A stretch of 64,000 bases of DNA from the NCBI RefSeq assembly GCF_026427715.1, contig NZ_CP107558.1:3317001-3381000 (forward strand), read 5' to 3'. Each line of letters begins with the position of its first letter. The first letter of the stretch is position 1. Origin of the DNA: Methylocystis sp. MJC1. GTDB lineage: Bacteria; Pseudomonadota; Alphaproteobacteria; Rhizobiales; Beijerinckiaceae. Positions 2,987 to 54,236 of this stretch are shown here, piece by piece. A program made the position numbers and the translations under genes. The notes under the pieces are model-generated. The model was not told the origin of the DNA, ran no database searches, and was given only the letters and a program-made list of their open reading frames with translations.

Positions 2987-3733
2987 TCAGAAAGCGGCAA
3001 CGTCGAGCTGCGCCGAGGGCGCAAAGTGAAGGCCGATCGCGAGCGTCGCGACGATCGCTATGAAAAGGAGAAAGGCGACCGCCCCGCGAGACGATCTCAG
3101 CGTTTCCTCGGCCGGAACCAAATGGCTCGGTTTATGTCCCGTCACCATGGCGCGAATAATCGGCTCCCGCATCACGACGACATGCGCGAGGACTGCGGTG
3201 ACATGCACGATAACCGCTGCGACAAGGACATAGAAAAGCTTGCGATGAAGCGACGTCAGTAGAAGGCTCGCCTCCTTGCTCACAAAAGGCGCGAGCGGAC
3301 CGGCATTGTATATTTCGTCGTCGCCGAAGAGGCCAAAGGCCGCCTGTGCGCCGAGCGACGCAAGCAGGGCCAGCACCATCAACGCGCCGAGCGGATTATG
3401 GCCCACATAACGGGTATGCCGCCCGCTCCCAACCGCGCTCACATAGTGCAACACCGCGCGCGGCCCTTTCAGAAAATTGGCGAAACGCGCATGTCTGGGG
3501 CCGATGAAGCCCCAAACAATGCGGAACGTCACCAAGACGATGACGGCGTAGCCAAAAAACAAATGCAGCGAGAAATAATCGGCGCCGAGCTTATTCGACA
3601 CATAGGCGCCGATGAAGGCGGCGACGAGGCTCCAATGGAAGAACCGTGTCGGCCAGTCCCAAACCTTACGATAAGTTCGCGTCTCGCTATAGGACTCGAC
3701 AGAAGAGAGACGGTCATTTTCGATGGTGGTCAT
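2987..3733 (-). CDS. Cytochrome b561-type membrane cytochrome
   Basis: A 248-residue integral membrane protein of the bacterial cytochrome b561 / hydrogenase-type b family (Ni/Fe-hydrogenase b, thiosulfate reductase b). It begins with the typical KVWDWPTRFFHW motif, which supplies a haem-ligand His, followed by LHLFFGY, HRKLFY and VHVTAVLAH in later helices, giving the pairs of His expected for two b haems. Four or five hydrophobic helices are visible. It is the last gene of a nine-gene run, 24 bases after the cytochrome c' gene. Proteins of this family pass electrons between the quinone pool and periplasmic c-type cytochromes, so it is the likely membrane link of this cluster. The partner is inferred. 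Confidence 0.85.
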   Translation of the reverse strand: MTTIENDRLSSVESYSETRTYRKVWDWPTRFFHWSLVAAFIGAYVSNKLGADYFSLHLFFGYAVIVLVTFRIVWGFIGPRHARFANFLKGPRAVLHYVSAVGSGRHTRYVGHNPLGALMVLALLASLGAQAAFGLFGDDEIYNAGPLAPFVSKEASLLLTSLHRKLFYVLVAAVIVHVTAVLAHVVVMREPIIRAMVTGHKPSHLVPAEETLRSSRGAVAFLLFIAIVATLAIGLHFAPSAQLDVAAF

Positions 3734-3757
3734 GTTGGCCTCGTCGCCGCTCGAGTT

Positions 3758-4252
3758 TTATTTGGCCTTATAGGTCTCGTGGCAGCCCTTGCAGTCTCCC
3801 GCGAGCGCCGCAACGGCGGCCTTGAAAGCGTCGGTGGCGCCTTTCTCTTTCGCATTGACTTCAACGAGCGCCTGGGCGTGCGTCTGGAAATCTTTCAGCT
3901 TCTTGTCGAAATCGGCGCGATTGCTCCAGACGTCGGCCTTGGCCTTGGATTCCGGCTCGCCAGGGTTCGAGCCTTCGGGAAAACCGTCTTCGACAATCGT
4001 CGAGAGGAAAGCGATTCTCGCGGCGCGTTTTGTCGCCTCGGCTTCGTCATAGGCGGCGGCGCCCTTCGAAACAGCCCCGAAATAGCGGAAGTTATTGCCG
4101 ATCAAGAGGAAGCCGGCCTTGCGGTTCTCGACGGCCTGCTTGCCCGGCGCGGGCGCGTTCTGCGCCTGAGCGCCAGCCACAATGGCGACGCTCACGAGAG
4201 CAACGACGCCGGCGATCGTGAGCGGCGCAGCGCGGTGAGATAGACGAGACAT
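3758..4252 (-). CDS. Cytochrome c' family protein
   Basis: A periplasmic four-helix-bundle cytochrome of 164 residues. A signal peptide ends near AGAQAQN, and the single haem c site CKGCH sits at residues 154-158, six residues from the end, as in cytochromes c'/c556. The first helix (ENRKAGFLLIGNNF) has no methionine where low-spin relatives carry their sixth ligand. A five-coordinate, high-spin haem is therefore likely (inference). The start at 4252 is chosen because it begins the signal peptide; a longer frame to 4357 would run into the peroxiredoxin gene. The downstream neighbour is cytochrome b561. Cytochromes c' commonly bind NO or donate electrons; the role here is unknown. Confidence 0.85.
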   Translation of the reverse strand: MSRLSHRAAPLTIAGVVALVSVAIVAGAQAQNAPAPGKQAVENRKAGFLLIGNNFRYFGAVSKGAAAYDEAEATKRAARIAFLSTIVEDGFPEGSNPGEPESKAKADVWSNRADFDKKLKDFQTHAQALVEVNAKEKGATDAFKAAVAALAGDCKGCHETYKAK

Positions 4253-4301
4253 ATGCAACGAACTCCATTTGCGATGGGAAACAGTGGTGGAAACAGCCGG
4301 C

Positions 4302-4856
4302 TTATGGCTTGTGTTCTTCACGCCATTTGCGAACGAACTCGAGCGTGCTCTCGACATGCCGGCTCGGGTTGGAGTCGGTCAGCGAGAAAGCGACTTTTCC
4401 GTCGGGCAGGATCACATAAGAGATTCGATCGGCGACCGTATCTCCCGAGGCGCTCGGCTTGAGGCGCTTGGCGTCATAGGCGTTGATCACCTTGAAGGCC
4501 GGGTCCGCCGCAACGGGAAATTTGTCGCGACACTCTTTCGTCGAGAACTCGCGCTGGGTCTCGATCGTGTCGCTCGATACGCCGATGAGAGACGCGCCGG
4601 CAGCGGCAAAACTGTCGTAGCTCTCGGCGAATTCATGCGCTTCGATCGTGCAGCCGCGCGTGAATGATTTTGGATAGAAGTAGAGGACGACGGGCCCCTT
4701 CTTCAGCGCCTCCGTGAGAGAGAAGTTGAAATCCTTGCCGCCGATCGCCGCTTGCGCGGCGAAGTCCGGCGCCGCGTCGCCAGGCCTTAGCGAGGCGTTG
4801 GCCGCGCTGGCCGACAAGGCGAGAAACAGCGAAATGATGACGCTCTTGATGCTCAT
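4302..4856 (-). CDS. Exported peroxiredoxin (AhpC/TSA, BCP-like)
   Basis: A 184-residue peroxiredoxin with a Sec signal peptide (about 22 residues), which is unusual since most BCP-type enzymes are cytosolic. The peroxidatic Cys69 sits in FTRGCT, close to the family pattern T-P-G-C-T but with Arg in place of Pro. No Cys lies five residues later as in two-cysteine BCPs. Cys109 (TKECRDKF) is the only other clear candidate to resolve the disulfide. The gene lies 49 bases before the cytochrome c' gene and 17 bases after the rhodanese-like gene. It may remove peroxide formed by the redox proteins of this cluster (inference). Confidence 0.85.
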   Translation of the reverse strand: MSIKSVIISLFLALSASAANASLRPGDAAPDFAAQAAIGGKDFNFSLTEALKKGPVVLYFYPKSFTRGCTIEAHEFAESYDSFAAAGASLIGVSSDTIETQREFSTKECRDKFPVAADPAFKVINAYDAKRLKPSASGDTVADRISYVILPDGKVAFSLTDSNPSRHVESTLEFVRKWREEHKP

Positions 4857-4873
4857 TTCGACCAGCCTCTTTC

Positions 4874-5410
4874 CTATTTTGCCTGTTGCGCGGGTGCCGC
4901 CGTAGCCGTTTGCGTGGCGCTGGGCGCGGCTGCGCTCTGCGCGGGCGGCGCGATCTTCAAGAGGGAGCCGCCCTCATCTTCGTAATCGCGCACGCCAATG
5001 GCGCCGACAACGTGGAACCCATAAGACGAAAGGAGGTCGCCCACAGCGCCGGCGCGATGCGCGCGGTTTGAAACGACGACGATCAAGCGATCGCGGGGAA
5101 TATAGGCGAGGCTATTCTGCACTTCTTTGGTCTGAATGCTGAGATAGACAGGAAAGCCCCCCACTTTCGTAAGCTCATCGGGCCGGCGCACATCGAGCAC
5201 AAGAAATTGCTCGGGGCGCGAAGCGAGGGAATCGAATGCCGCGCGGTTGAGGCGTAGCGTCTTATAGGTATAGGCAGGGTCGTTTGCGGGCGTAACAGGC
5301 GCAGGGCTCGCTGCTGCGGGTTGCGACGCGGCCGCTGGGGCTGGAGGAGTATCCGCGGCCAAAGCCGTGGTTGCCGCCAACAGTGAAGCAAGAAAAAGCA
5401 GTGTCTTCAT
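4874..5410 (-). CDS. Exported rhodanese-like protein without catalytic Cys
   Basis: 178 residues: a signal peptide (about 19 residues), a Pro/Ala-rich linker (20-45), then one rhodanese domain (50-150) with the VLDVRRPDEL motif at 71-80. The active-site loop reads VVVSNRAHRAG, so Ser114 stands where sulfurtransferases have Cys. Thiosulfate sulfurtransferase chemistry is therefore not expected, and the domain is more likely a binding or regulatory module. The C-terminus is a second Ala/Gln-rich tail. It sits in the middle of the nine-gene cluster with short gaps on both sides. Confidence 0.8.
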   Translation of the reverse strand: MKTLLFLASLLAATTALAADTPPAPAAASQPAAASPAPVTPANDPAYTYKTLRLNRAAFDSLASRPEQFLVLDVRRPDELTKVGGFPVYLSIQTKEVQNSLAYIPRDRLIVVVSNRAHRAGAVGDLLSSYGFHVVGAIGVRDYEDEGGSLLKIAPPAQSAAAPSATQTATAAPAQQAK

Positions 5411-5434
5411 GACTTGTTTCCTTCGGAAGCTCTG

Positions 5435-6325
5435 TCAGCCGCGCAGATGGGCGTTGAAGAAATCGATGGTGCGTCCCCAGGCGAGTTTCGCCGCAGCCTC
5501 GTCGTAGCGAGGCGTCGTGTCATTGTTGAAGCCGTGCTGCACGCCGGGATAGATGAAGGCCTCATAGGAGATCTTCGCGTCTTTCAGCGCCGCCTCATAT
5601 GCGGGCCAGCCAGCGTTGATGCGATCGTCATTGCCGGCGTAATGGAGCAGCAGAGGCGCCTTGATGTTCTTGACGTCCTCCGCCTTCGGCTGTCCGCCGT
5701 AGAAAGGCACGGCCGCGGCAAGGTAGGGAGTTTTTGTCGCCAGGAAATTGGAGACGCCGCCGCCGTAGCAGAAGCCTACGACGCCGACCTTGCCATTGCC
5801 GTCCGGCAGCTCCTTGAGCGCCGAAACCGCTGCAATGAAATCCTTGCGGGTCTTTTCCTGATCGAGTTTTTGGAAGAGCTCACGCGCTTTATCTTCATCG
5901 CCGGGGTAGCCGCCGAGCGGCGCGAGCCCGTCGGGCGCAAAGGCGATGAAATTGGCAAGCGCCAGGCGGCGCGCAATATCTTCGATGTGCGGATTAAGCC
6001 CGCGGTTCTCGTGCACGACGAGAACAACAGGGAGCTTGCCCGTAGATTTCGCCGGCTTTACGAGATAGCCCTTCACCGTCCCGTTGCCTTCCGGAGAAGG
6101 ATATTCGACCGTCTGCCCCACGATGCGGGAGTCGTCCTTCTTGACCTGTTCGGCTTCGGCGAAGCGTGGGCTCAAAGCGTCGAGCGTCGCCGCTGCGCCA
6201 GCGGCTCCAAGGCCCAGCCTGCCGACGCGGTCGAGGAAACCGCGTCGATCGATGTCGCCGTGGACGTAAAGATCGAATGACTTCAGGACCTCGGGACTGA
6301 AGTCCTTTGCCGTCTTGCGAGTCAT
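5435..6325 (-). CDS. Exported dienelactone hydrolase family protein
   Basis: An alpha/beta hydrolase of 296 residues. A twin-arginine-like leader is visible (DRRGFLDRVG at 26-35 followed by an Ala/Gly-rich stretch), so export is likely, unlike classic cytosolic carboxymethylenebutenolidase. The Cys-Asp-His triad is present: Cys186 in GFCYGGG, Asp233 or Asp234 in GNDDR, and His264 in GVQHGF; Glu106 in VHENRG is also conserved. The start at 6325 has an AGGGAA ribosome site eight bases upstream; a longer frame reaches 6439 but overlaps the neighbouring cytochrome. It may hydrolyse a lactone or ester substrate of the cluster; the substrate is unknown. Confidence 0.85.
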   Translation of the reverse strand: MTRKTAKDFSPEVLKSFDLYVHGDIDRRGFLDRVGRLGLGAAGAAATLDALSPRFAEAEQVKKDDSRIVGQTVEYPSPEGNGTVKGYLVKPAKSTGKLPVVLVVHENRGLNPHIEDIARRLALANFIAFAPDGLAPLGGYPGDEDKARELFQKLDQEKTRKDFIAAVSALKELPDGNGKVGVVGFCYGGGVSNFLATKTPYLAAAVPFYGGQPKAEDVKNIKAPLLLHYAGNDDRINAGWPAYEAALKDAKISYEAFIYPGVQHGFNNDTTPRYDEAAAKLAWGRTIDFFNAHLRG

Positions 6326-6353
6326 ATTGTTCCCTTTGGCGTTGGGTGAAAAT

Positions 6354-6767
6354 TCAGCGCGCCAGGCGCGGCTTGTAGATATCGTGACAGGATTTGCAGA
6401 GATCGGGGGCGCCGCGCGCAGCGGCGGCCGCCGCATCAAAGTCGTTGCCGTCGACGCTCGCGATCACGTCGCTAATCAGCTTCACGCCTTTGCGCGAAAT
6501 CTCGACCGCATCGGCGGCGTCCTTTTTCTTGAAATAGGACTCGGTATATTTGAAGCCGTCGAGCAGCACCTGCGCGTCTTCTTTCGCCGCATCGGCGTTC
6601 TTGGCAGTGATGTCGGGCTCGAAATATTTGACCGTCTTTTCCAGATCGCGCATCAAATCATTGTCGTAATCGCGCAGATCGATTGCCGCGATGACAGGCG
6701 CGCTGAAGAGAACAGCGACGCAGGCAATCATAAGGTCGACGCGCAGGGTTTTCAGAAACTCGATCAT
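6354..6767 (-). CDS. Small periplasmic cytochrome c (c'/c556-like)
   Basis: 137 residues with an N-terminal signal or anchor (MIEFLKTLRVDLMIACVAVLF) and one CKSCH haem site at 124-128, close to the C-terminus, as in four-helix cytochromes of the c' class. Met39 in the first helix could be the sixth ligand, which would make it c556-like, in contrast to the cytochrome c' gene at 3758. The start overlaps the cupredoxin stop by four bases, so the two are translationally coupled. It is a likely electron partner of that copper protein (inference). Confidence 0.8.
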   Translation of the reverse strand: MIEFLKTLRVDLMIACVAVLFSAPVIAAIDLRDYDNDLMRDLEKTVKYFEPDITAKNADAAKEDAQVLLDGFKYTESYFKKKDAADAVEISRKGVKLISDVIASVDGNDFDAAAAAARGAPDLCKSCHDIYKPRLAR

Positions 6768-7108
6768 TTTGCCACCGTGATTTTCCCTCTCATGCCCGAG
6801 TGCAGGTCGCAGAAATAAACGGCATCACCCGGGGTCGAGAGCACGACCGCAAAGGTCTCACCCTCGTCGAGCTGTTCCCTGGAACGAAAGGTCTCGCCAT
6901 TCGGCGCTTCGAGGACAACCGAATGCGGAATCTGGTCGTTGTTGGTGAATTCGATCCGGTCTCCTGCTTTCACGCTGATCGTCGGCGGATCGAATGCATA
7001 ATGTTCGATAGCGATCTTTGTCGGAGCGCCTTGCGCCCCGGCTGCGGAAGGACTGGCGGCGACCGCCAGTCCCATGATGAGGAAAAAAAATCCGCGACCT
7101 GGCAGCAT
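6764..7108 (-). CDS. Cupredoxin (plastocyanin/amicyanin-like)
   Basis: A type 1 copper protein of 114 residues with a signal peptide (about 26 residues). All four copper ligands can be seen: His62 in QIPHSV, and Cys100, His103 and Met106 in the C-terminal loop FCDLHSGM. It is expected to carry single electrons in the periplasm. It lies 10 bases after the DUF1501 stop and overlaps the following cytochrome gene, so it belongs to the same transcript. The mix of a blue copper protein, c-type cytochromes and cytochrome b561 is the main reason to read the cluster as an electron-transfer system. Confidence 0.9.
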   Translation of the reverse strand: MLPGRGFFFLIMGLAVAASPSAAGAQGAPTKIAIEHYAFDPPTISVKAGDRIEFTNNDQIPHSVVLEAPNGETFRSREQLDEGETFAVVLSTPGDAVYFCDLHSGMRGKITVAK

Positions 7109-7118
7109 AAAGCGACGC

Positions 7119-8573
7119 CTAGGTGAGGATGTCTTTGACGACCTTGCCGTAAACGACCGTTGGCCTTTCGGCGCGGCCGGCGCGCAAGTAGATCGTCTTC
7201 AGGTGATCGAGACCGAGAAGCTGGAGCACTGTCGCGTGGACGTCATAGGTGTCCACCGGATTCTCAACCGTCTTCAAACCAATCTCGTCGGTCTGGCCAT
7301 AGGTGAAGCCATGCTTCAGGCCGCCGCCAGCGAGCCATTGCGTATAGCCCCACGGATTATGGTCGCGCCCGTCGCCGCTCTGGCCATAGGAGGTGCGGCC
7401 GAATTCCGACGTCCAGATGACGAGCGTCTGATCCAGCAGGCCGCGCGACTCAAGATCGGCCAAGAGCGCGCCGATCGGCTTGTCCACTGCTCTGACATGC
7501 AGGCTGTGGTTCTTTTCGAGTTGGCGATGCGCGTCCCAGTTCGAGTCGTCGCCGACGCCCGAGCCTTCGATCGGCCCCGACACAACCTGGATGAAGCGCA
7601 CGCCGCGCTCGACGAGGCGACGCGCGCGCAGAAGCACGGTGCCATAGTCCTTCGTGGCGTCTTCATTGAGGCCGTAAGCCGCTTTGGTGGCGTCGGTCTC
7701 CTTGGAGAGATCCACAGCCTCCGGCGCCGTCGCTTCCATGCGATAAGCGAGATCATAGGAGCGCGTGCGCGCCTCGAGCTCGGTGTCCTCTGGACGCGAG
7801 GCCCCGCGCAGATCGTTGAGCTTCTTCAGCAGATCGAGGCTTTCGCGCTGCTGCTGCAAGCCGATGAGATCCGGCGGCGCCTGATGCAGGATGGGTTGCG
7901 CGCCGGGACGGAAGGCCGTGCCCTGATAGATCGCCGGAAGGAAGCCGGAACTCCAGTTCACGGAGCCCGCACGCGGCTCGCGCTTGCCGCTGTAAAGCAC
8001 GACATAGGGCGGAAGATCGGGATTGGCGGAGCCGAGCGCATAGGTGACCCAGGCGCCGAGCGACGGACGGCCCGGCGAGAGATCGCCCGTGTTCAGCTTC
8101 AGGATCGAGATGTCATGCGTTGCGCCGACGGTGACGCTGGATTTGATGAAGGTAAGCTTATCGGCATGCTGCGCGATATTGGGGACCCAGTCTGAGAACC
8201 AGGCGCCGCTCTGGCCATATTGCTTCCAGCTGCGGTTGGTGGCGAAGAGCTTGCCGACGCCGCCCTGGGTCGAGGTCTTGATGCCCTTGAGGAAGGATTC
8301 CGGCACTTCTTGCCCCGCGAGGCGCACGAGCTCCGGCTTGTAGTCGAAGAGATCGAGCGTCGACGGCGCGCCGTCCATGTGAAGCCAGATGACCGATTTC
8401 ACTTTCGGCTCGAAATGCGGGGCCTTCGGCGCCAGCGGGTCGACGAAACTGGCGGCGTTGGCGTCGGGGACGCCGAACCAGCCGCCGCCCGGCATCATGC
8501 CGCTGACGGCGTAGCCACCCAGACCATAAGCGGCGCTGCGCAGCCAGTCGCGACGAGAGGTCTTGATCAACAT
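7119..8573 (-). CDS. DUF1501 family protein, Tat-exported
   Basis: 484 residues. A twin-arginine motif (SRRDWL, residues 6-11) and a Gly/Ala-rich leader show export of a folded protein. The body begins VIWLHMDGAPSTLDLFDYKP, the DUF1501 signature, and later carries WTSEFGRTSYGQSGDGRDHN, a metal-site-like segment of the alkaline-phosphatase/sulfatase fold. In planctomycetes and related bacteria DUF1501 genes usually follow DUF1549/DUF1553 genes, as here with a 21-base gap. The biochemical role of the pair is not established. Its presence in an alphaproteobacterium next to copper and haem proteins is the striking point. Confidence 0.9.
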   Translation of the reverse strand: MLIKTSRRDWLRSAAYGLGGYAVSGMMPGGGWFGVPDANAASFVDPLAPKAPHFEPKVKSVIWLHMDGAPSTLDLFDYKPELVRLAGQEVPESFLKGIKTSTQGGVGKLFATNRSWKQYGQSGAWFSDWVPNIAQHADKLTFIKSSVTVGATHDISILKLNTGDLSPGRPSLGAWVTYALGSANPDLPPYVVLYSGKREPRAGSVNWSSGFLPAIYQGTAFRPGAQPILHQAPPDLIGLQQQRESLDLLKKLNDLRGASRPEDTELEARTRSYDLAYRMEATAPEAVDLSKETDATKAAYGLNEDATKDYGTVLLRARRLVERGVRFIQVVSGPIEGSGVGDDSNWDAHRQLEKNHSLHVRAVDKPIGALLADLESRGLLDQTLVIWTSEFGRTSYGQSGDGRDHNPWGYTQWLAGGGLKHGFTYGQTDEIGLKTVENPVDTYDVHATVLQLLGLDHLKTIYLRAGRAERPTVVYGKVVKDILT

Positions 8574-8594
8574 GACGAAGTTCCTTTCGAAGGA

Positions 8595-10946
8595 TCAGAA
8601 ACGATAGACAAAATCGTTGGAGTTCATGACCGTGTGCACGAGGTCGACGAAGGCCGAGGCGCGCAACGGATCGGCGGGCTTTTCCTTCGCGCCGATCGGC
8701 AGAGCGATGGCGAGCTTTCCGTCTTCCGCCTTTTGCGCGATGGTCTTCTGGTGCTGGTCAAGGAAGGCGTGCAACGCCTCCTTCTCGGAGTCGGTGGCCC
8801 TGCGCGAGAAGAGGATCTGATAGAGCCGGTCGATGCGCGCGGTTTCATCGGGACCAGCTTCATTGATCACGCGTCCCGCGAGCGCCTGCGACCATTGGAA
8901 GAACTGATCGCTGTTGTAGAGCGTCAGCGCCTGCAACGGCGTCGTCGTCACATCTCGCTTGCTGTGAATCTGCTGCGCATTCGCCATGTCGAAGGTTTCG
9001 AGCAGCGGATAGGGCAGACTGCGGCGCGTGAAGATATAGAGGCTGCGACGCGTATGGTCCTTCGGATCTTTCGACGTCGTCCAGGCGGGATCGGCGTTGA
9101 AGTTGTTGCCGCCGCTGACATTGGCGGGAAGCGGCGGGAAGACGCTGGGTCCGCCGACCTCCTCATTCAGCCTGCCCGAGGCGACGAGAACCGAGTCGCG
9201 AATCTCTTCGGCCTCGAGGCGCTTGCGCGGAAAGGCGGCGAGGAGCTTGTTCTCCGGATCGACCTTGGCGACGTCCTCGCGATAATCGGAGGATTGACGA
9301 TAAGTCGACGAGAGCAGGATGTCGCGATGGAGTTTTTTGACGCTCCAGCCATCCTTCACGAAACGATCGGCGAGATAGTCCAGCAGCTCCGGATTGGTCG
9401 GCTTGTCGCCCGCCTTGCCGAAGTCCGAGACCGTCACGACAATGCCCTTGCCGAAATACTGGTTCCAGATGCGATTGACGAAGACGCGCGCGGTGAGCGG
9501 GTTCGTCGCGCTCGTCAGCCAGTTCGCCAGAGCCGTGCGACGGCCGGAGGATGTCTCCGTCGGCTTGATGTCGGGCTTCTCGCCCGTCATCGCCTCGGGG
9601 AAAGCGGGCTGTACTTCCTCTAGCGGCCTTTCGTGATTGCCGCCGAAGAAAACATAGGTTGGCGGGGCGTCGGGATGGCCGAGCTCGGTCGCCGTCGTGA
9701 AGGTATTGGCGCCGCGCGACGGCTTTTTGTCCACGAATTTTTGAAGCTCGCGCTGGAGTTTCTGATACTCCTCGAACTTCTGCACGGCCTCCGGGCTGTG
9801 CTCGGGCGCCGATTTATCCTCGGCGGCGTAACGCAGGAAGGCGGCGAGCTGCGGCTGGTCGGTCACCGCGTTGAGACGGTGATTGACCCAGCGGTCGAGC
9901 GCGTTCCATTGATCTTTCGGCTTGAAGATGGAGTCGCGGCTGTCGGTGAGATAACGCTCCTTGTGATATTTGAGCGCAGCGTCATAGACCGTGTCGATGA
10001 TGGCCTTCTGCCTGGCGCGAATATCCTTCGTCGCCTCATCGTAAATCGCCTGGGCCTTTTCGTATGCGAGCTCCTGCTCGCCCTTCTTGGCGGGGGCCTT
10101 CTCTTGGAAGGCCGTATTGGCGAAGAAGGCCTGCAGCGAGAAATAGTCTTTCTGGGTGAACTTGTCGCTCTTGTGATTATGGCAACGGGCGCAGCCGACC
10201 GTCGTGCCGAGAACGGCCTGGCCAATCGTGTCGACGATATCCGTGGAGATCTGATACTTGCGTTGGACGAGGTCGCGCGAATTGCTGTTGTCGGGATAGC
10301 CGGCAAGAAAACCGGTCGCGACGAGGATGTCCTGATCGTTGGGCGCAATCTCGTCGCCGGCGATCTGCTCCTGAATGAAGCTCGAATAAGGCTTGTCCTC
10401 GTTGAACGCCTTGATGACGTAATCGCGGTAGCGGAACAAATTCGGCCGCGTATTGTCATTCTGGAAGCCGGTCGAATCCGCATAACGCGCGAGATCGAGC
10501 CAGAGGCGCGCCTGACGCTCGCCGTAGCGCGGCGAGGCGAGAAGACGGTCGACGAGCTTCTCATAGGCGTTGGGCGCGGAATCATTCACAAAGGCGTCGA
10601 CGTCCTCAGGCGTCGGCACAATGCCCCAGGCGTCGAGCGTGGCGCGCCGGATGAAGGTGGCGCGGTCGGCGTCCTTGGACGGCGAAAGATTCTTGCCTTC
10701 GATTTTGGCGAGCACAAAGGCGTCGAGCGGCGAGCGCACCCACTCCTTCTGCTTCACATTAGGAAGGAACTGCGCCTGCACCGGCTGCCACGCCCAATGC
10801 GGCTTCGACGACGGGCTTGCGGCCTTCGGGGCGTCGGGCGTCGCCGTGGCGGATTCATTCGGCTTCACCTCGGCGGCGACGGCGAGCGCGCCGATGGATA
10901 CGCTCATGAGCATCGCAAGGTAGGCTTTTTTTGCTGTCGTCTTCAT
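8595..10946 (-). CDS. DUF1549-DUF1553 protein (planctomycete-type, one haem c motif)
   Basis: 783 residues: a Sec signal peptide (about 25), a linker, then DUF1549 (about 65-270), a middle region, and DUF1553 (about 460-760, with RTALANWLTSATNPLTARVFVNRIWNQ near its start). One CARCH haem-binding motif lies at 252-256 inside DUF1549, followed by NHKSD, the usual CxxCHxHK pattern. The separate N-terminal PSCyt1 cytochrome domain found in many planctomycete homologues is missing. It is the first gene of the nine-gene run. A periplasmic haem protein acting with DUF1501 is likely; the substrate is unknown. Confidence 0.9.
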   Translation of the reverse strand: MKTTAKKAYLAMLMSVSIGALAVAAEVKPNESATATPDAPKAASPSSKPHWAWQPVQAQFLPNVKQKEWVRSPLDAFVLAKIEGKNLSPSKDADRATFIRRATLDAWGIVPTPEDVDAFVNDSAPNAYEKLVDRLLASPRYGERQARLWLDLARYADSTGFQNDNTRPNLFRYRDYVIKAFNEDKPYSSFIQEQIAGDEIAPNDQDILVATGFLAGYPDNSNSRDLVQRKYQISTDIVDTIGQAVLGTTVGCARCHNHKSDKFTQKDYFSLQAFFANTAFQEKAPAKKGEQELAYEKAQAIYDEATKDIRARQKAIIDTVYDAALKYHKERYLTDSRDSIFKPKDQWNALDRWVNHRLNAVTDQPQLAAFLRYAAEDKSAPEHSPEAVQKFEEYQKLQRELQKFVDKKPSRGANTFTTATELGHPDAPPTYVFFGGNHERPLEEVQPAFPEAMTGEKPDIKPTETSSGRRTALANWLTSATNPLTARVFVNRIWNQYFGKGIVVTVSDFGKAGDKPTNPELLDYLADRFVKDGWSVKKLHRDILLSSTYRQSSDYREDVAKVDPENKLLAAFPRKRLEAEEIRDSVLVASGRLNEEVGGPSVFPPLPANVSGGNNFNADPAWTTSKDPKDHTRRSLYIFTRRSLPYPLLETFDMANAQQIHSKRDVTTTPLQALTLYNSDQFFQWSQALAGRVINEAGPDETARIDRLYQILFSRRATDSEKEALHAFLDQHQKTIAQKAEDGKLAIALPIGAKEKPADPLRASAFVDLVHTVMNSNDFVYRF

Positions 10947-11351: not shown

Positions 11352-11987
11352 TCAGACCGCTCCGTCGCAAGGGCAGAATTCATAGGACATCACTAGATAA
11401 AGCGTCGCAGGGGCCGCGCCGAGATTTCGATAGAGGTGCGGCACGTCCGCCAGGAAATCGATGGCGTCGCCTTCCTGCAGAATCTGCGGGCTCTCGCGGC
11501 CCACGGCGATCTCGATTGTCCCCTTTGCGACCACCAGATTTTCCTTCGTCCCGGGCGCATGCGCCTCGACATGCTGGCAATGATGGGGCGCGAGCACGAT
11601 CTCGTAGAATTCGGCCATGCGCGCCCCGTCATAGGGAAAGAGAGGCCGCGTGCTGAATTTCCCATCCTGCGACGTGACGCTTTGGCGCGCGTTGTTGCGC
11701 AAAACCTGGACGCCGCGGCGCGCCGACGAGGCGACGAGACGGCCGAAGGGCACGCCCAGCGCGTTGGCGATGCGCCAGAGGTGGTTGATCGTCGGCGCCA
11801 CCGCGCCGGCTTCGATCCGCAGAAGCTCGGAAGGGTCTATGCCGCTCAGCTTTGCGAGCCTCTCGAACGAGCGCCCCTCGAGAGCGATGAGCTGCTTCAG
11901 ACGATCGGCGACAAGCGCGGCAAGCGTGTTTTCCACGGCGGCGTCGCGCTTCGGGGAATGCTTTTCCATCTCTATAGACCCTATCAT
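11352..11987 (-). CDS. XRE-family regulator with C-terminal cupin
   Basis: 211 residues: an N-terminal helix-turn-helix (about 22-85, with LAKLSGIDPSELLRIEAGAVAPTI) and a C-terminal cupin (about 120-200, with HVEAHAPGTKENLVV and LQEGDAIDFLADVPH). Such regulators bind DNA through the XRE part and sense a small ligand or metal with the cupin. A second start at 11969 has AGGG ten bases upstream and may be the true one. It lies directly upstream of the nine-gene cluster in the same direction, and divergent from the haem-binding-like gene. It is the obvious candidate to control either (inference from position). Confidence 0.85.
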   Translation of the reverse strand: MIGSIEMEKHSPKRDAAVENTLAALVADRLKQLIALEGRSFERLAKLSGIDPSELLRIEAGAVAPTINHLWRIANALGVPFGRLVASSARRGVQVLRNNARQSVTSQDGKFSTRPLFPYDGARMAEFYEIVLAPHHCQHVEAHAPGTKENLVVAKGTIEIAVGRESPQILQEGDAIDFLADVPHLYRNLGAAPATLYLVMSYEFCPCDGAV

Positions 11988-14272: not shown

Positions 14273-14357
14273 TGGTGCCCAGGAGAGGACTCGAACCTCC
14301 ACGGCTTTCACCACTGGTACCTGAAACCAGCGCGTCTACCAATTCCGCCACCTGGGC
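14273..14357 (-). tRNA. tRNA-Leu (CAG)
   Basis: Read on the minus strand, the acceptor stem GCCCAGG pairs with CCTGGGC, followed by A and an encoded CCA. The D-loop (GAATTGGTAGACGC), an anticodon stem CTGGT/ACCAG with loop TTCAGGT giving anticodon CAG, a long variable arm (TGGTGAAAGCCGTGG) and a T-arm GGTTCGAGTCC are all present. The long variable arm is typical of class II tRNA-Leu. Confidence 0.95.
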
Positions 14358-14558
14358 ACGTGGGACGCTCTCTTAGGGGCGCCGCATGGCGTCTGTCAAT
14401 GCGGCTCTGTGGGAAAATACGCCACGGAGCGGAAAAAGAGCGTCGCCGGGGCGGCCAACGCCTCGCGGCGCATTTCCTTCCCTTGCGAATTTCGCTAGAG
14501 CACGGGCGACGAATTTTCCAGCCGGCGACGCCGGCGCGGCGAACGGAGCAAGAAAGCG

Positions 14559-15566
14559 ATGAGCGGCGTGAACGTTGGCGCGGGACGCGTTGTGACGGTA
14601 TTTGGCGGTTCGGGCTTCGTCGGGCGCTATGTCGTGCGGGCGCTGGCGCGCGACGGCTGGCGCGTGCGCATCGCCTGCCGCCGCCCCGACCTCGCCTTTC
14701 ATCTGCAGCCACAGGGCCGCGTCGGCCAGGTGATGGCGGTGCAGGCCAATGTCCGCCATCCCGAATCGGTCGCGGCTGCGCTGCACGGCGCTTCGGCGGT
14801 GGTGAATCTCGTCGGCATTCTGGCCGAGAGCGGAGCCCAGAAATTCTCCAAGGTGCAGGCCGAGGGCGCCAAGACCATCGCCGAGGCCGCCAAGGCCGCC
14901 GGCATCGACACTCTCGTGCATATTTCGGCGATCGGCGCGGACGCCACTTCGGCCTCGCAATATGCCCGCAGCAAGGCCGCTGGCGAAGCCGCGGTGCATG
15001 CCGCGGTTCCGACCGCCGTCATTCTCCGCCCCTCGGTGATCTTCGGCATCGAGGACCAGTTCTTCAACCGCTTCGCCACCATGGCGCGCTATTTCCCGGC
15101 GATCCCGGTCGTCGGCGCGGAGACGAGGTTCCAGCCGGTCTATGTCGGCGACGTGGCCGAGGCGGTCGCCGGCGCCATCGCCGGCCGCGCCAAGGCGGGA
15201 GCGGTCTATGAGCTCGGCGGCCCGGAGGTGCGGAGCTTCGCTGCGCTGATCGACTTCGTCCTGAAGGTCACCGAGCGCGAGCGGCATGTCGCCAAGCTCT
15301 CCTTCGCAACCGGCAAGCTCGTCGCCTCGATCACCAGCCTCTTCACCAAATTGTCGCTCGGGCTGTTCCCGACGCTGCTGCGCATGACCGCCGATCAGGT
15401 GGAGCTGCTGCAGCACGACAATGTGGTGAGCGCCGAGGCGATCAAGGAAGGCCGCACGCTGCAGGGGCTCGGCGTCGAACCGCAGTCCTTCGAGGCGATC
15501 GCCCCGACCTATCTCTATCGCTACCGCAAGACCGGCCAGTACCAGGCGCAGCGCCTGGAGGCGTAA
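14559..15566 (+). CDS. NDUFA9-like complex I NAD(P)-binding protein
   Basis: 335 residues of the atypical short-chain dehydrogenase fold. The Rossmann motif GGSGFVGRYVV lies at about 16-26, followed by NLVGILAES and HISAIGADATSASQYARSKAAGE. The usual YxxxK becomes Y-A-R-S-K, so the fold binds NAD(P) but catalysis is uncertain. Alphaproteobacterial members are annotated as homologues of the mitochondrial complex I accessory subunit NDUFA9. The gene stands alone here. The 3' end meets a palindromic repeat and a convergent gene. Confidence 0.9.
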   Translation: MSGVNVGAGRVVTVFGGSGFVGRYVVRALARDGWRVRIACRRPDLAFHLQPQGRVGQVMAVQANVRHPESVAAALHGASAVVNLVGILAESGAQKFSKVQAEGAKTIAEAAKAAGIDTLVHISAIGADATSASQYARSKAAGEAAVHAAVPTAVILRPSVIFGIEDQFFNRFATMARYFPAIPVVGAETRFQPVYVGDVAEAVAGAIAGRAKAGAVYELGGPEVRSFAALIDFVLKVTERERHVAKLSFATGKLVASITSLFTKLSLGLFPTLLRMTADQVELLQHDNVVSAEAIKEGRTLQGLGVEPQSFEAIAPTYLYRYRKTGQYQAQRLEA

Positions 15567-15625
15567 GGCGCGGGCGCGGTCATCCCCGTTGGGCCAAGGG
15601 CCCGGCTGGGACTCCCGAGCGCCCA

Positions 15626-15706
15626 CGTCATTGCGAGGAACAAAGCGACGAGGCAATCCAGAGCCACGTCGCGGCCCTGGATTGCTTCGCTTCGCTCGCA
15701 GTGACG
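15626..15706. repeat. Dispersed palindromic repeat, copy 1
   Basis: About 81 bases with imperfectly complementary ends: CGTCATTGCGAGGAACAAAG at the left and the complement CTTCGCTCGCAGTGACG at the right, around an internal AGGCAATCCAG/CTGGATTGC pair. It lies between the convergent ends of the NDUFA9-like and CysZ-like genes and may act as a two-way terminator. Confidence 0.85.
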
Positions 15707-15727
15707 GCGCCTTTGGATCCGGCGAGG

Positions 15728-50489: not shown

Positions 50490-51799
50490 TGCCCATAATT
50501 GGGGACTTCAGGGACTTGCTCGGGAGAAAACCCTCAGGGAGAACTAACGCAGTTGCTTTTCCTCGTTCACTAGCCCGCTTGGTAGCGGATCGTTGGTATA
50601 ACCTCGTGAGCGGCGACTATGAGCATCCTCCTTGTCCGCCGCTTCGTTTACTTATTAGACTATTTGAAGCTTGCTATATCGCCTCAACTCTGACTGAAGA
50701 AGGGCGGTATATTCCATTCAACGTTGTAATGCACCGTCGTGGGGATGAGCCTGCTGAGCGGTCAGTACGGTTCCGCCAAACAAGGCTTTTGAACACTCAA
50801 GAACTAAGGCGGCTAGCGCCGACGGTTGACTTAAGGAAAAGTGCAATACTCGTTGAATGGGCAGAATCTGAACTCGCAATTTCAGGATTAATTGATATTG
50901 GGACCTCTTGGTACAGAGCAAGAGCGGGCCTTTCCCTCAAATTCGAGAGCCCGAATGCGCTGATAGCTCAGATTGAACGGCCGGGGAGAATAGCAGTTTA
51001 TTAAGGCGTATACAGAATCGCCGCTCTTTCGGACGGTACTCTGGAACAACCTTTTGGTAGAGATATCGATTTATTTCTGCACAAAATCTGCAGCCACGGA
51101 ATGCGGGCCGTCCATAGCGAAATAGATTATCCAGAGTATGAGCCTGAATATGAGTCCAGCTCTTTTCAGTTTATCTGCTTATGGAACACCTACGCTGCAA
51201 TTGCAAACGCGATCAGCGCGAATGGTCATGGTGGTATGTTAATAATACTGCCGGATACAGTCGTGGACTCCGAACTTGTCAGGTGTAAATACACTTGCTG
51301 CTCTAACATATTGAGGGATGCGTTCACTCGCTTCATGAACGCACGTCATCTTGTTGGCGATTATACAGAACTAACAGAAGATGGATTTAACATACCCGAG
51401 CAATTCAAAATACGTGCCGAATGGAACATGGTAGAATATTATGACGCGCTTGTAGAGGCGACACGGTTTGTTGCTGGCCTTTCGGGATGCGACGGCGCAC
51501 TCGTCTTGTCTAGCGATCTGCGCTTGCTCGGATTTGGAGGCGAAATTCGGGCTGAGTTGCTAGCAGACATAAATGTCTCTGAGGTAAAGAACGAAGCGAG
51601 GCGCGAATACTCCGAGTGTGACATAGAGCAATTTGGTATGAGGCACCGTTCAGCGATCAAGCTTGCCAGTAAAAGTCGAGAAAGTCTCGTGCTAGCCATT
51701 TCGCAAGATGGCCCGATAAGCGCCGTTTGGTGGCAGGACGACAGGGTGCTAGTCAAGAAAAACGTAAGGTTGACCAATCTAAACATGCCTTACGCCTAA
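50489..51799 (+). pseudogene. DisA_N/DAC-like sensor gene with one in-frame stop
   Basis: Two frames in the same phase, 50489-51004 and 51005-51799, are split only by TAA at 51002-51004; joined they give about 436 residues. The second part holds GCDGALVLSSDLRLLGFGG (a DGA motif, bases 51491-51499) and FGMRHRSAIKLA (an RHR motif, 51641-51649), then LVLAISQDGPISAVWW. These are the two active-site motifs of diadenylate cyclases; I recall a DACNV sensor family with this pattern. The region is poorer in G and C than its neighbours, so it may be acquired. If the stop is real, an ATG at 51101 could still give a 232-residue C-terminal protein. Confidence 0.6.
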
Positions 51800-51867
51800 C
51801 GGCAGGGCACCATTGCGGATGGGTAATTTTTAAGTTATATATACATATAATTCTTTGGGACATCATC

Positions 51868-52125
51868 ATGCACACAACCTCTCTTCGCAAAGTCGGCGGC
51901 TCCGTCATGCTTGCCGTCCCGCCCGCGATCCTCGACCTTCTCGATCTGAAGGCGGGCGCGACGGTCGGCGTCTCGGTCGAAGACGGCAAGCTCGTCATCG
52001 CTCCCACGACGAAATCCCGCTACAAGCTCGCCGAACTTCTCGCGCAATGCGACGCCTCGGCGGAGCCGTCCGAGGAGGATCGCGCGTGGCTCGGCGACAA
52101 GCCGCAAGGCTCGGAGCTGCTCTGA
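51868..52125 (+). CDS. AbrB/MazE-type antitoxin
   Basis: 85 residues. SLRKVGGSVMLAVPPAILDLL and VGVSVEDGKLVIAP are the swapped-hairpin AbrB/MazE DNA-binding domain; the C-terminal part (LLAQCDASAEPSEEDRAWL) is acidic, as needed for toxin binding. One base separates its stop from the toxin start. AT-rich upstream sequence (TTATATATACATATAATTC) is the likely promoter. Confidence 0.88.
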   Translation: MHTTSLRKVGGSVMLAVPPAILDLLDLKAGATVGVSVEDGKLVIAPTTKSRYKLAELLAQCDASAEPSEEDRAWLGDKPQGSELL

Positions 52126-52126
52126 C

Positions 52127-52459
52127 ATGGAGCGCGGCGACATCTATCTCGTCTCGCTCGACCCGACCTCGGGGCACGAGCAGCGAGGCGCGCGGCCGGT
52201 GCTCATCGTCTCGGCGACGGCCTTCAACAAGATAACGAAAACGCCCATCGTCCTGCCGATCACGAGCGGCGGCAATTTCGCGCGCACGGCCGGCTTTGCG
52301 GTGTCTCTCATGGGCGCTGGCACGCAGACGACGGGCGTCATCCGTTGCGACCAGCCGCGCGCCCTCGACCTCGGCGCACGCCACGCCCGCAAGCTCGAAT
52401 GCGCGCCGCCGGAGATCGTCGACGAAGCGCTCGCCAAGCTCGCCGCCATCTTCGAATAG
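52127..52459 (+). CDS. MazF/PemK-type toxin
   Basis: 110 residues. ERGDIYLVSLDPTSGHEQRGARPVLIVS is the family start (key residues GDI, P-x-x-G-H-E-Q-x-G and RPVLI), with VLPITSGGN and GVIRCDQPRALDL. An endoribonuclease that cuts mRNA. Paired with the AbrB/MazE-type gene upstream. Confidence 0.92.
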   Translation: MERGDIYLVSLDPTSGHEQRGARPVLIVSATAFNKITKTPIVLPITSGGNFARTAGFAVSLMGAGTQTTGVIRCDQPRALDLGARHARKLECAPPEIVDEALAKLAAIFE

Positions 52460-53537: not shown

Positions 53538-54236
53538 GCGCTTTTCCCCGGCGCATGGTCTCGTCCCAAAAGGGGCGCCACGATCACGCGCCTGCGCCCG
53601 ACCTTCCGGCCAGCGCGAATAATGAAGTGGAGGCTTCTGTTGCCAGGCGCCTCCGAGCCCCGCCTAGAAGTGCTAACCCCTAGGGCTTTGATCCCAGTTT
53701 GAGCGCCGCATTACGCGGCGACGGCCACCGGAGCATAGTTGTCGTTGGCAACTATAAGGTTTGACCCGATAACGGCGGTATCATGCCGAGCGAAAAAGCA
53801 CCCTTTACGCCCCCGTCGATCCTATTTCGCCCCCGCCGCAGCCCGCCGTGACGCGCTGTGGTGGAGGCGCCGGGTACCGCCCCCGGGTCCGGATGGTTTA
53901 TTTCGATGTTCGTTTATCGCCATAGCCGGCGTGAACCGGCAGAACGAATATAGGGGTTTGGACGCGTTTGTGAAAGGGGAGCGACGAACTCCGTCGGATT
54001 ATCCTCTTCTAATAGAAGCCGAGCCGGGGCGAGAGCGCCTGCCGCATGGGCTCGGCCTCCCCCTGCGCCAAAATTAATCTCGACAGCCCGCCAAGTGGGC
54101 GCTTTCCGCCTTGTATGCGGGCGATCTTCCCAATAGTTTGGCGACCGCGAAAAATCGCGGCGCGAGAGCCCGGCTCCCCTTCGGGAGGCGGCGGCTCGCG
54201 CTTTCCGCGCCGCCCGTTCTCTTTAGGAATCGCTGC
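53538..54236. promoter_or_regulatory. Long intergenic region before sucD
   Basis: No gene is supported and no sucC remnant is seen. A perfect inverted repeat ATAGTTG/CAACTAT lies at 53735-53755. TTGGCA (53745) and GATAAC (53768) with 17 bases between could be a sigma-70 promoter. The last 190 bases form several GC-rich hairpins (for example CCGCGAAAAATCGCGG), so a structured leader before sucD is possible. Confidence 0.4.

Follow-up and report, generated by a model that had tools for sequence, protein, structure and literature searches.

What purpose is served by an exported redox system whose core enzymes belong to DUF1501, DUF1549 and DUF1553, families that Pfam lists, all three, as being of unknown function? 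The question is raised by positions 2987-10946 of a 64,000-nucleotide stretch of the Methylocystis sp. MJC1 genome (hereafter the window), where nine open reading frames (ORFs) on the minus strand were confirmed. An earlier note had taken this operon to be a generic periplasmic oxidation or reduction system. Sulfur genes that neighbour the cluster or its relatives, together with the depletion of cysteine and methionine from most of its proteins, shift the likely purpose to sulfur supply under limitation. A role for the operon in sulfur limitation is, judged from sequence, very probable and, given such a role, sulfur scavenging is its likely form. On balance, we favour the view that the operon encodes the periplasmic arm of a sulfur-limitation system, in which the adjacent TonB-dependent receptor imports an organosulfur compound and the sulfur is then released from it. 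A sulfur-bearing, carbohydrate-type molecule is the foremost candidate substrate, if a tentative one. What sequence supports here is gene association and composition; the induction, the substrate and every catalytic step are what we infer.

If correct, a system of a known kind, responding to sulfur limitation, would be built around an enzyme core from these families. DUF1501, DUF1549 and DUF1553 are widespread, and a sulfur-limited setting in cultivable methanotrophs gives them a testable role; it may also indicate that methane oxidisers in freshwater and soils poor in sulfate draw on a source of sulfur not so far recognised. Searches of Creative Commons-licensed PMC literature, judged by titles and abstract openings, found no paper linking DUF1501, DUF1549 or DUF1553 to sulfur limitation.

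Association with sulfur-assimilation genes

The link between the cluster and genes of sulfur assimilation is strong. In the genome of Methylocystis sp. MJC1 itself, the 20 kb to the left of the window contain a family-2A encapsulin that scores above its cutoff (3302669-3303568), a cysteine desulfurase of the cargo type, named from a class-V aminotransferase match and its position, and a serine-acetyltransferase-like (SAT) protein, named from a hexapeptide match and its position. The same flank encodes a CysK-like, cysteine-synthase-like protein of the PALP family, a 753-amino-acid (aa) exported CxxCH protein, ExbD, ExbB and TonB, the last two named from sequence and position only, and two Rrf2 regulators whose best equivalog match, CymR, is below cutoff.

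Relatives of the cluster were collected by a DUF1501 search of species genomes, which gave 169 loci; the 80 most similar to the window were kept. These are not a random sample: they come from alpha-, beta- and gammaproteobacteria and a few other bins, many being methanotrophs or methylotrophs. All loci were taken as binned, including two (L015 and L036) from metagenome bins titled outside the Proteobacteria. An island in a Gallionella metagenome-assembled genome (L033) carries SsuA, SsuD and SsuE above their NCBIfam cutoffs, as does a Methylomonas locus (L070) for CysK, an EpsC-type SAT, an encap_f2a encapsulin and its cysteine-desulfurase cargo, and three loci (L020, L022 and L141) for sulfate-binding proteins. 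Genes for an SsuA-like binding protein, an ABC transporter and a porin run divergently from the DUF pair in L028 and L033, the SsuA-like protein of L028 scoring 92.5 bits, below its cutoff.

DUF1501 is patchily spread. It occurs in 20 of the 199 family genomes, in 2 of 398 from a phylum sample and in 3 of 300 from another order; because the latter two broad samples gave so few matches, the genomes behind the loci were used for tests. These genome tests cover 50 of the 80 loci, alphaproteobacterial loci and some near-duplicates or short fragments being left out, and the expected distances assume uniform placement and ignore contig breaks, which can only reduce the observed proximity counts, and relatedness. 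Within the family, encapsulin is present in 18 of the 20 genomes with DUF1501 compared with 31 of the 179 without it (Fisher p=9e-11, relatedness ignored), and lies no more than 25 kb from DUF1501 in 11 of these 18 (0.38 expected). Similarly, 42 of the 50 cluster-bearing genomes encode encapsulin, compared with 12 of 299 sampled from the phylum, Methylocystis sp. MJC1 among them. The two genes are separated by at most 25 kb in 13 of the 42 (0.59 expected) and by at most 42 kb in 16 (0.99 expected). At this latter distance the phosphate-binding control, PstS, was found near DUF1501 in 1 of 26 genomes (0.69 expected) and SsuD in 3 of 11 (0.35 expected). These encapsulin tests are less exposed to selection, though encapsulin itself was picked from the loci.

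Any of 12 sulfur markers is found in 22 of the 80 loci versus 1 of 40 control windows, and marker score thresholds of 0.3, 0.4 and 0.5 give 23, 22 and 19 loci versus 2, 1 and 1 windows. Because some of these loci had been viewed before the markers were chosen, the p-values are no more than indicative; when the five loci used as sources of marker queries (L022, L028, L033, L041 and L070) are removed, the counts become 17 of 75 versus 1 of 40 (p=0.003). Sigma-54 activators, whose architecture we take to be SfnR-like, occur in 18 of the 80 loci (16 in the neighbour-family count) versus none of the 40 control windows, and in 17 of 79 once the query locus is removed (p=0.0005). Among the 25 NCBIfam families listed for the sigma-54 regulator, none matched above a cutoff. 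A motif search of 14 upstream regions from the island and its relatives returned AT-rich palindromes that exceeded a local-shuffle null and differed at each of four widths, so that none was stable.

An arylsulfotransferase-family (ASST-like) exported protein with 0.42% Cys+Met is also encoded in the left flank (14281-15708 of that locus), and arylsulfotransferase-like genes occur near the cluster in L015, L030, L063 and L067. Such a protein could perform a phenol-sulfate step of the same system.

Depletion of cysteine and methionine

The sulfur hypothesis predicts proteins that are low in Cys+Met, and this was then tested, with start methionines excluded from the counts and controls drawn from cluster-bearing genomes. 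Thirty-nine of the 40 control windows were used, L119 having been dropped beforehand as it holds a sulfate-binding protein, and signal peptides were called by a crude rule. The nine operon proteins contain 27 Cys+Met in 2579 residues (1.05%), whilst the pooled controls stand at 2.50% for exported proteins (87 ORFs) and 3.26% for the others (328 ORFs). When nine exported controls were resampled, 12 of 200,000 draws were as low as the operon.

The rhodanese-like protein has neither Cys nor Met after its start, the hydrolase has no Met and a single Cys, in its catalytic motif, and DUF1501 has no Cys and four Met. The DUF1549-1553 protein contains two Cys and five Met after its start and the TonB receptor no Cys and six Met in 827 residues (0.73%). 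Median Cys+Met over the loci lies at 0.00% in ExbB, sulfate-binding proteins, the OprP-type porin and the rhodanese, at 0.20-0.47% in a metallo-beta-lactamase-fold (MBL) protein, SMP-30, the hydrolase, TonB and TonB receptors, at 0.75% in DUF1549-1553, 0.83% in DUF1501, 1.05% in b561 and 1.54% in the peroxiredoxin. Neither the short cytochrome nor the other c-type cytochrome is low (3.9-4.6%). In the poor proteins, the retained Cys are those needed for cofactor binding or catalysis. The sulfur context and the depletion account for the absence of Cys from the rhodanese, to which the earlier note had drawn attention.

Near the cluster in six loci (L023, L052, L055, L056, L061 and L062) from Duganella, Rugamonas and Pseudoduganella, of Oxalobacteraceae type, is a GroEL paralogue, 539-563 aa long and containing 0-1 Cys and 1-4 Met, beyond which lies a gene for CcmH (cytochrome c maturation); this is possibly a sulfur-free chaperonin for starvation. 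One control window (L101; G857:C1:800001-820000) holds a 374-aa exported ORF devoid of both residues, and an SsuD gene lies 16-36 kb away, at 835777. Composition by itself may be enough to reveal further sulfur-limitation proteins, and Cys/Met depletion of a gene neighbourhood may flag uncharacterised nutrient-limitation systems.

Proposed role in sulfur scavenging

In the proposed pathway, scarcity of sulfur would induce the operon. An organosulfur molecule too large for porins would be imported by the TonB receptor, powered by TonB/ExbB/ExbD, and then attacked by DUF1549/1553, the haem protein, together with DUF1501. Electrons would exit through the small cytochromes, joined in this genus by the cupredoxin, to b561 and the quinone pool, with the lactonase-like hydrolase dealing with an ester or lactone co-product and the peroxiredoxin with peroxide. 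The freed sulfate or small sulfonate would enter via ABC transporters, from which SAT, CysK and the encapsulated cysteine desulfurase could generate cysteine and stored or mobilised sulfur. A more ambitious reading, which we regard as doubtful, is that DUF1549/1553 and DUF1501 are an oxidative-hydrolytic enzyme pair, so far undescribed, which releases sulfur from carbohydrates bearing sulfate or sulfonate groups, and that bacteria of freshwater and soil have surrounded this pair with a dedicated version of much of the supply line, purged of sulfur. This version would comprise the receptor, the enzymes and, as far as cofactors allow, the carriers, extending in some groups to ExbB, a porin, binding proteins and a chaperonin paralogue.

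A number of observations weigh against sulfur scavenging. None of the 12 markers is carried by 58 of the 80 loci; encapsulin is missing from 8 of the 50 cluster genomes and, in six genomes (G076, G126, G185, G857, G861 and G892), shares a contig with DUF1501 at more than 100 kb. True SsuD occurs in 11 of the 50 genomes and is near DUF1501 in two to three of these, and it is missing from Methylocystis sp. MJC1 (best score 52.3 bits, cutoff 518.2), where FMNH2-dependent desulfonation of the SsuD type was on this basis rejected. Depletion does not extend to encapsulin (1.9-2.3%, median 2.28%), its cargo (2.0-2.3%, median 2.04%) or the genome's own TonB (2.68%) and ExbD (2.67%), and the exported controls have a low tail, with a 5th percentile of 0.39%. 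In DUF1501 the formylglycine-type sulfatase motif was found in 0 of 56 aligned rows, the window protein having no Cys, position 67 of the first strand, Asp in the window protein, is not Asp in 19 of the 56, and E390/F391 stand where aligned sulfatases carry Asp and Gln or Asn. Finally, in a tree of 69 DUF1501 proteins, of which 61 are window-type (0.42-1.47% Cys+Met) and 8 comparison proteins (2.29-4.36%), the undepleted protein of marine Saccharobesus nests inside the low-sulfur group (support 0.996, clade of 13); depletion was therefore lost there or gained more than once. Saccharobesus provides evidence that the core machinery can function outside any sulfur role and that the core reaction need not involve sulfur.

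Alternative explanations

Among the 80 loci (with the 62 of at least 20 kb in brackets), DUF1549-1553 is present in 78 (62), the short cytochrome in 71 (58), the peroxiredoxin in 67 (57), the TonB receptor in 52 (44), the rhodanese in 41 (37), b561 in 36 (34), cytochrome c' in 34 (31) and the hydrolase in 23 (22). Gene content, order and strand vary among loci and, because order and strand do so, the cluster is a conserved set, not a fixed operon. The single exported redox system proposed in the earlier note, comprising DUF1549/1553, DUF1501, haem carriers and b561, does recur over the 80 loci and not as random subsets: leaving aside the two DUF genes and the cupredoxin, all seven remaining families occur in 10 of the 62 longer loci and none in 2. 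Recurrent neighbours include a c-type cytochrome with two Cytochrom_C stretches (41 loci), PepSY membrane proteins (18 loci) and MBL-fold proteins (14 loci). In addition, 20 loci carry SMP-30/gluconolactonase-like proteins, a second lactonase-like family, which makes plausible the ester or lactone step at which the earlier note had guessed.

In the strongest rival, sulfur limitation again induces the cluster, but the products serve envelope redox protection and electron balance, through the peroxiredoxin, cytochrome c' and a superoxide-oxidase-like b561, and do not release sulfur. Sulfur-poor proteins would be equally expected, the peroxiredoxin and short cytochrome are among the most frequent members and, in passages of PMC12581299, sulfur starvation in Pseudomonas is described as inducing LsfA, Ohr and SodB. 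We nevertheless consider it unlikely, as the constant element is DUF1549/1553 with DUF1501, the TonB receptor accompanies 52 of the 80 loci, and the SsuA-like protein, ABC transporter and porin of L028 and L033 point to substrate uptake.

A second possibility is that the cluster oxidises carbohydrate, as in planctomycetes and Bacteroidota, and that the sulfur link merely reflects the ecology of the genomes that happened to be sampled. Homologues adjoin GH88, GH43, GH115, GH98, pectate lyase, FucP or SusCD-type genes, and passages of PMC5615132 describe carbohydrate-binding modules on PSCyt proteins and sulfatases nearby. In Saccharobesus, DUF1549/1553, DUF1501, the short cytochrome, cytochrome c', b561 and a TonB receptor sit among GH88 and pectate-lyase genes, with 2.06-3.95% Cys+Met in the two DUF proteins, c' and b561 and 1.63% in the receptor. 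Such settings among polysaccharide genes, that of Saccharobesus above all, are the reason for favouring a carbohydrate-like substrate within the sulfur-scavenging reading. As an explanation in its own right carbohydrate oxidation is improbable, for it leaves the Cys/Met loss unexplained, and encapsulin proximity far exceeds expectation in both of the separate samples. A low sulfur content is not inherent in these families: Cys+Met is 2.0-4.4% in the DUF1501 and DUF1549/1553 proteins of Saccharobesus, Catenovulum, Haliscomenobacter, Singulisphaera and an acidobacterial second copy, whose DUF1501 has 3.71% and DUF1549-1553 2.43%; DUF1501 of planctomycete, Catenovulum and Haliscomenobacter relatives contains 2.5-4.4%.

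Five proteobacterial second copies (L137-L141) have low Cys+Met. Smaller DUF1549-1553 and DUF1501 units were also seen in the Proteobacteria (L004, L137, L139 and L141), with 0.39-0.85% Cys+Met in both proteins; beside the pair, L137, L139 and L141 have a TonB receptor, and L141 also carries a sulfate-binding protein and L139 an MBL-fold protein.

The gene content of the nine is itself the basis of a third explanation, that of the earlier note, in which electrons run through a central blue copper protein to b561 in a chain unrelated to sulfur and possibly linked to copper. The cupredoxin occurs in 1 of the 80 loci (L001; 1 of the 62 longer loci) and so is not core, and this chain, which leaves both the sulfur neighbours and the composition unexplained, is highly improbable; copper acquisition or a copper-dependent chain was rejected for the same lack of conservation. 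That the sulfur-poor composition is a meaningless by-product of export and high GC can be all but dismissed: exported controls do fall below others and single ones can be very low, but they come from cluster-bearing genomes, the same DUF families elsewhere reach 2.0-4.4%, and the GroEL paralogue of six loci is also poor in both residues.

Gene layout and individual proteins

With internal ATG starts chosen for the hydrolase (6325) and the larger cytochrome (4252), the intergenic gaps are 21, 10, -4, 28, 24, 17, 49 and 24 bases, which reproduces the nine closely spaced minus-strand genes (gaps or overlaps of -4 to 49 bases) first described. After a gap of 248 bases a tenth gene on this strand encodes the TonB-dependent receptor (255-2738, 827 aa; Pfam TonB_dep_Rec and Plug), whose position is the same in L001 and L003 and for which L002 gave no match. 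Locus L001, with a DUF1501 that is 97% identical, is from a genome of the same genus group whose DUF1501 coordinates match those of Methylocystis sp. Sn-Cys. An XRE-cupin regulator gene lies upstream of the operon on the same strand (11352-11987), 405 bases away.

The family assignments of the earlier note for the DUF1549-DUF1553, DUF1501, dienelactone-hydrolase-like, peroxiredoxin and b561 proteins are upheld by Pfam matches. The exported haem protein DUF1549 (PSCyt2)-DUF1553 (PSD1) (8595-10946, minus strand as for all that follow; 783 aa; 269/324 bits) has its CxxCH at 252-256, which, with His258, is kept in 78 of 81 homologues, the other three having a gap there. Its AF2 model is mostly helical (pLDDT 80); neither a relative by sequence (E<=0.001) nor a clear fold match for the model was found in the PDB. 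The DUF1501 protein (7119-8573, 484 aa; 444 bits), with a twin-arginine start, has the alkaline-phosphatase/sulfatase fold, which is also that of type I sulfatases, and is a putative metal enzyme. A suggestion that DUF1553 is the same family as the DUF1800 partner of other DUF1501 proteins was rejected, as profile comparison gave a probability of 0.35%, which a weak Pfam match (E=0.0064) did not outweigh; the cluster-type and DUF1800-partnered DUF1501 groups are themselves related (92.5% in profile comparison).

The accessory cupredoxin (6764-7108; Pfam Copper-bind/Cupredoxin_1) possesses all four of the residues first noted, His62, Cys100, His103 and Met106. Of the two cytochromes originally described as c'-type, the larger (3758-4252, ORF open to 4357) is one, at 105 bits against Cytochrom_C_2 and with CxxCH in 17 of 17 homologues over 100 bits, whereas the 137-aa protein (6354-6767, CKSCH haem motif) reaches 20.8 bits, below the cutoff of 26.5. 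In the latter the haem-motif Cys, Cys and His and Met39 are invariant in 71 of 71 homologues, with CxxCH spacing in 54 and CxxxCH in 17, and on the strength of the sub-cutoff match and invariant Met39 it may be a Met-ligated, c556-like carrier. The YghX-like protein of the dienelactone-hydrolase family (5435-6325, ORF open to 6439; Pfam DLH 170 bits) scores 430.7 bits against NCBIfam YghX, below the cutoff of 460, and keeps Cys224, Asp271 and His302 (long-ORF numbering) in 22 of 22 homologues.

The rhodanese-like exported protein (4874-5410) is named from its sequence and loop, having no Pfam match at E<=0.01. The position of the catalytic Cys in its CxxxxR loop is Ser114 in 41 of 41 homologues, 38 of which have no Cys after residue 15, and a sulfurtransferase function was therefore rejected. 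The exported peroxiredoxin (4302-4856; AhpC-TSA 97 bits) retains Cys69 in 75 of 75 and Cys109 in 74 of 75 homologues, and the cytochrome b561-type membrane protein (2987-3733; Ni_hydr_CYTB, the prokaryotic cytochrome b561 family, 85 bits) has six invariant His in 18 of 18 homologues over 200 bits.

Relation to known systems

The cluster resembles the organosulfur systems induced by sulfate starvation in Pseudomonas and E. coli (ssu, tau, msu/sfn and the ats/sft arylsulfate cluster) in the ABC organosulfur or sulfate transport genes of some loci, in its sigma-54 activators and peroxiredoxin, and in its sulfur-poor proteins. It differs in its core, exported DUF1549/1553 and DUF1501 with haem carriers, and in the absence of SsuD from 39 of the 50 genomes. 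DUF1501 also differs from the formylglycine sulfatases of the alkaline-phosphatase superfamily, as all 56 rows are without the sulfatase signature and metal-ligand positions are altered; the signature motif is C/S-x-P-x-R.

Peroxiredoxins are known sulfur-starvation proteins, and passages of PMC12581299 draw a link to antioxidant enzymes. The family-2A encapsulin/cysteine desulfurase systems, as described in parts of PMC8049743 and PMC8346489, have the same encapsulin, cargo and SAT, and in S. elongatus the encapsulin and cargo are upregulated in sulfur starvation; unlike in these published systems, a periplasmic uptake and redox operon here lies near the encapsulin genes. The main texts of the two papers do not contain 'TonB', nor does that of PMC8346489 contain 'DUF1501'. 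Planctomycete PSCyt2/PSD1 and DUF1501 pairs belong to the same families, which are adjacent in Singulisphaera and which here are adjacent, over Pfam cutoffs and with CxxCH. R. baltica has 41 copies each of PSCyt2 and PSD1, according to passages of PMC2754498, whereas the 4.54 Mb genome of Methylocystis sp. MJC1 has a single PSCyt2 match, together with small cytochromes, b561, a TonB receptor and sulfur depletion. Sulfur-depleted proteins have been described in sulfur-limited cyanobacteria and among sulfur-assimilation enzymes (Mazel and Marliere 1989; Baudouin-Cornu 2001; both as cited in part of PMC5513900). As in those precedents, Cys/Met loss here is tied to sulfur supply, but it extends across a neighbourhood of mostly exported proteins, in some loci including ExbB, a porin and the GroEL paralogue.

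Other features of the window

Two further features were observed elsewhere in the window. A short gene pair at 51727-52459 resembles an AbrB-type antitoxin and a MazF/PemK-type toxin, names given from sequence only. At 53620-53953 lies a two-piece (permuted) tmRNA gene, an arrangement usual in Alphaproteobacteria, with the tag ANDNYAPVAVAA.

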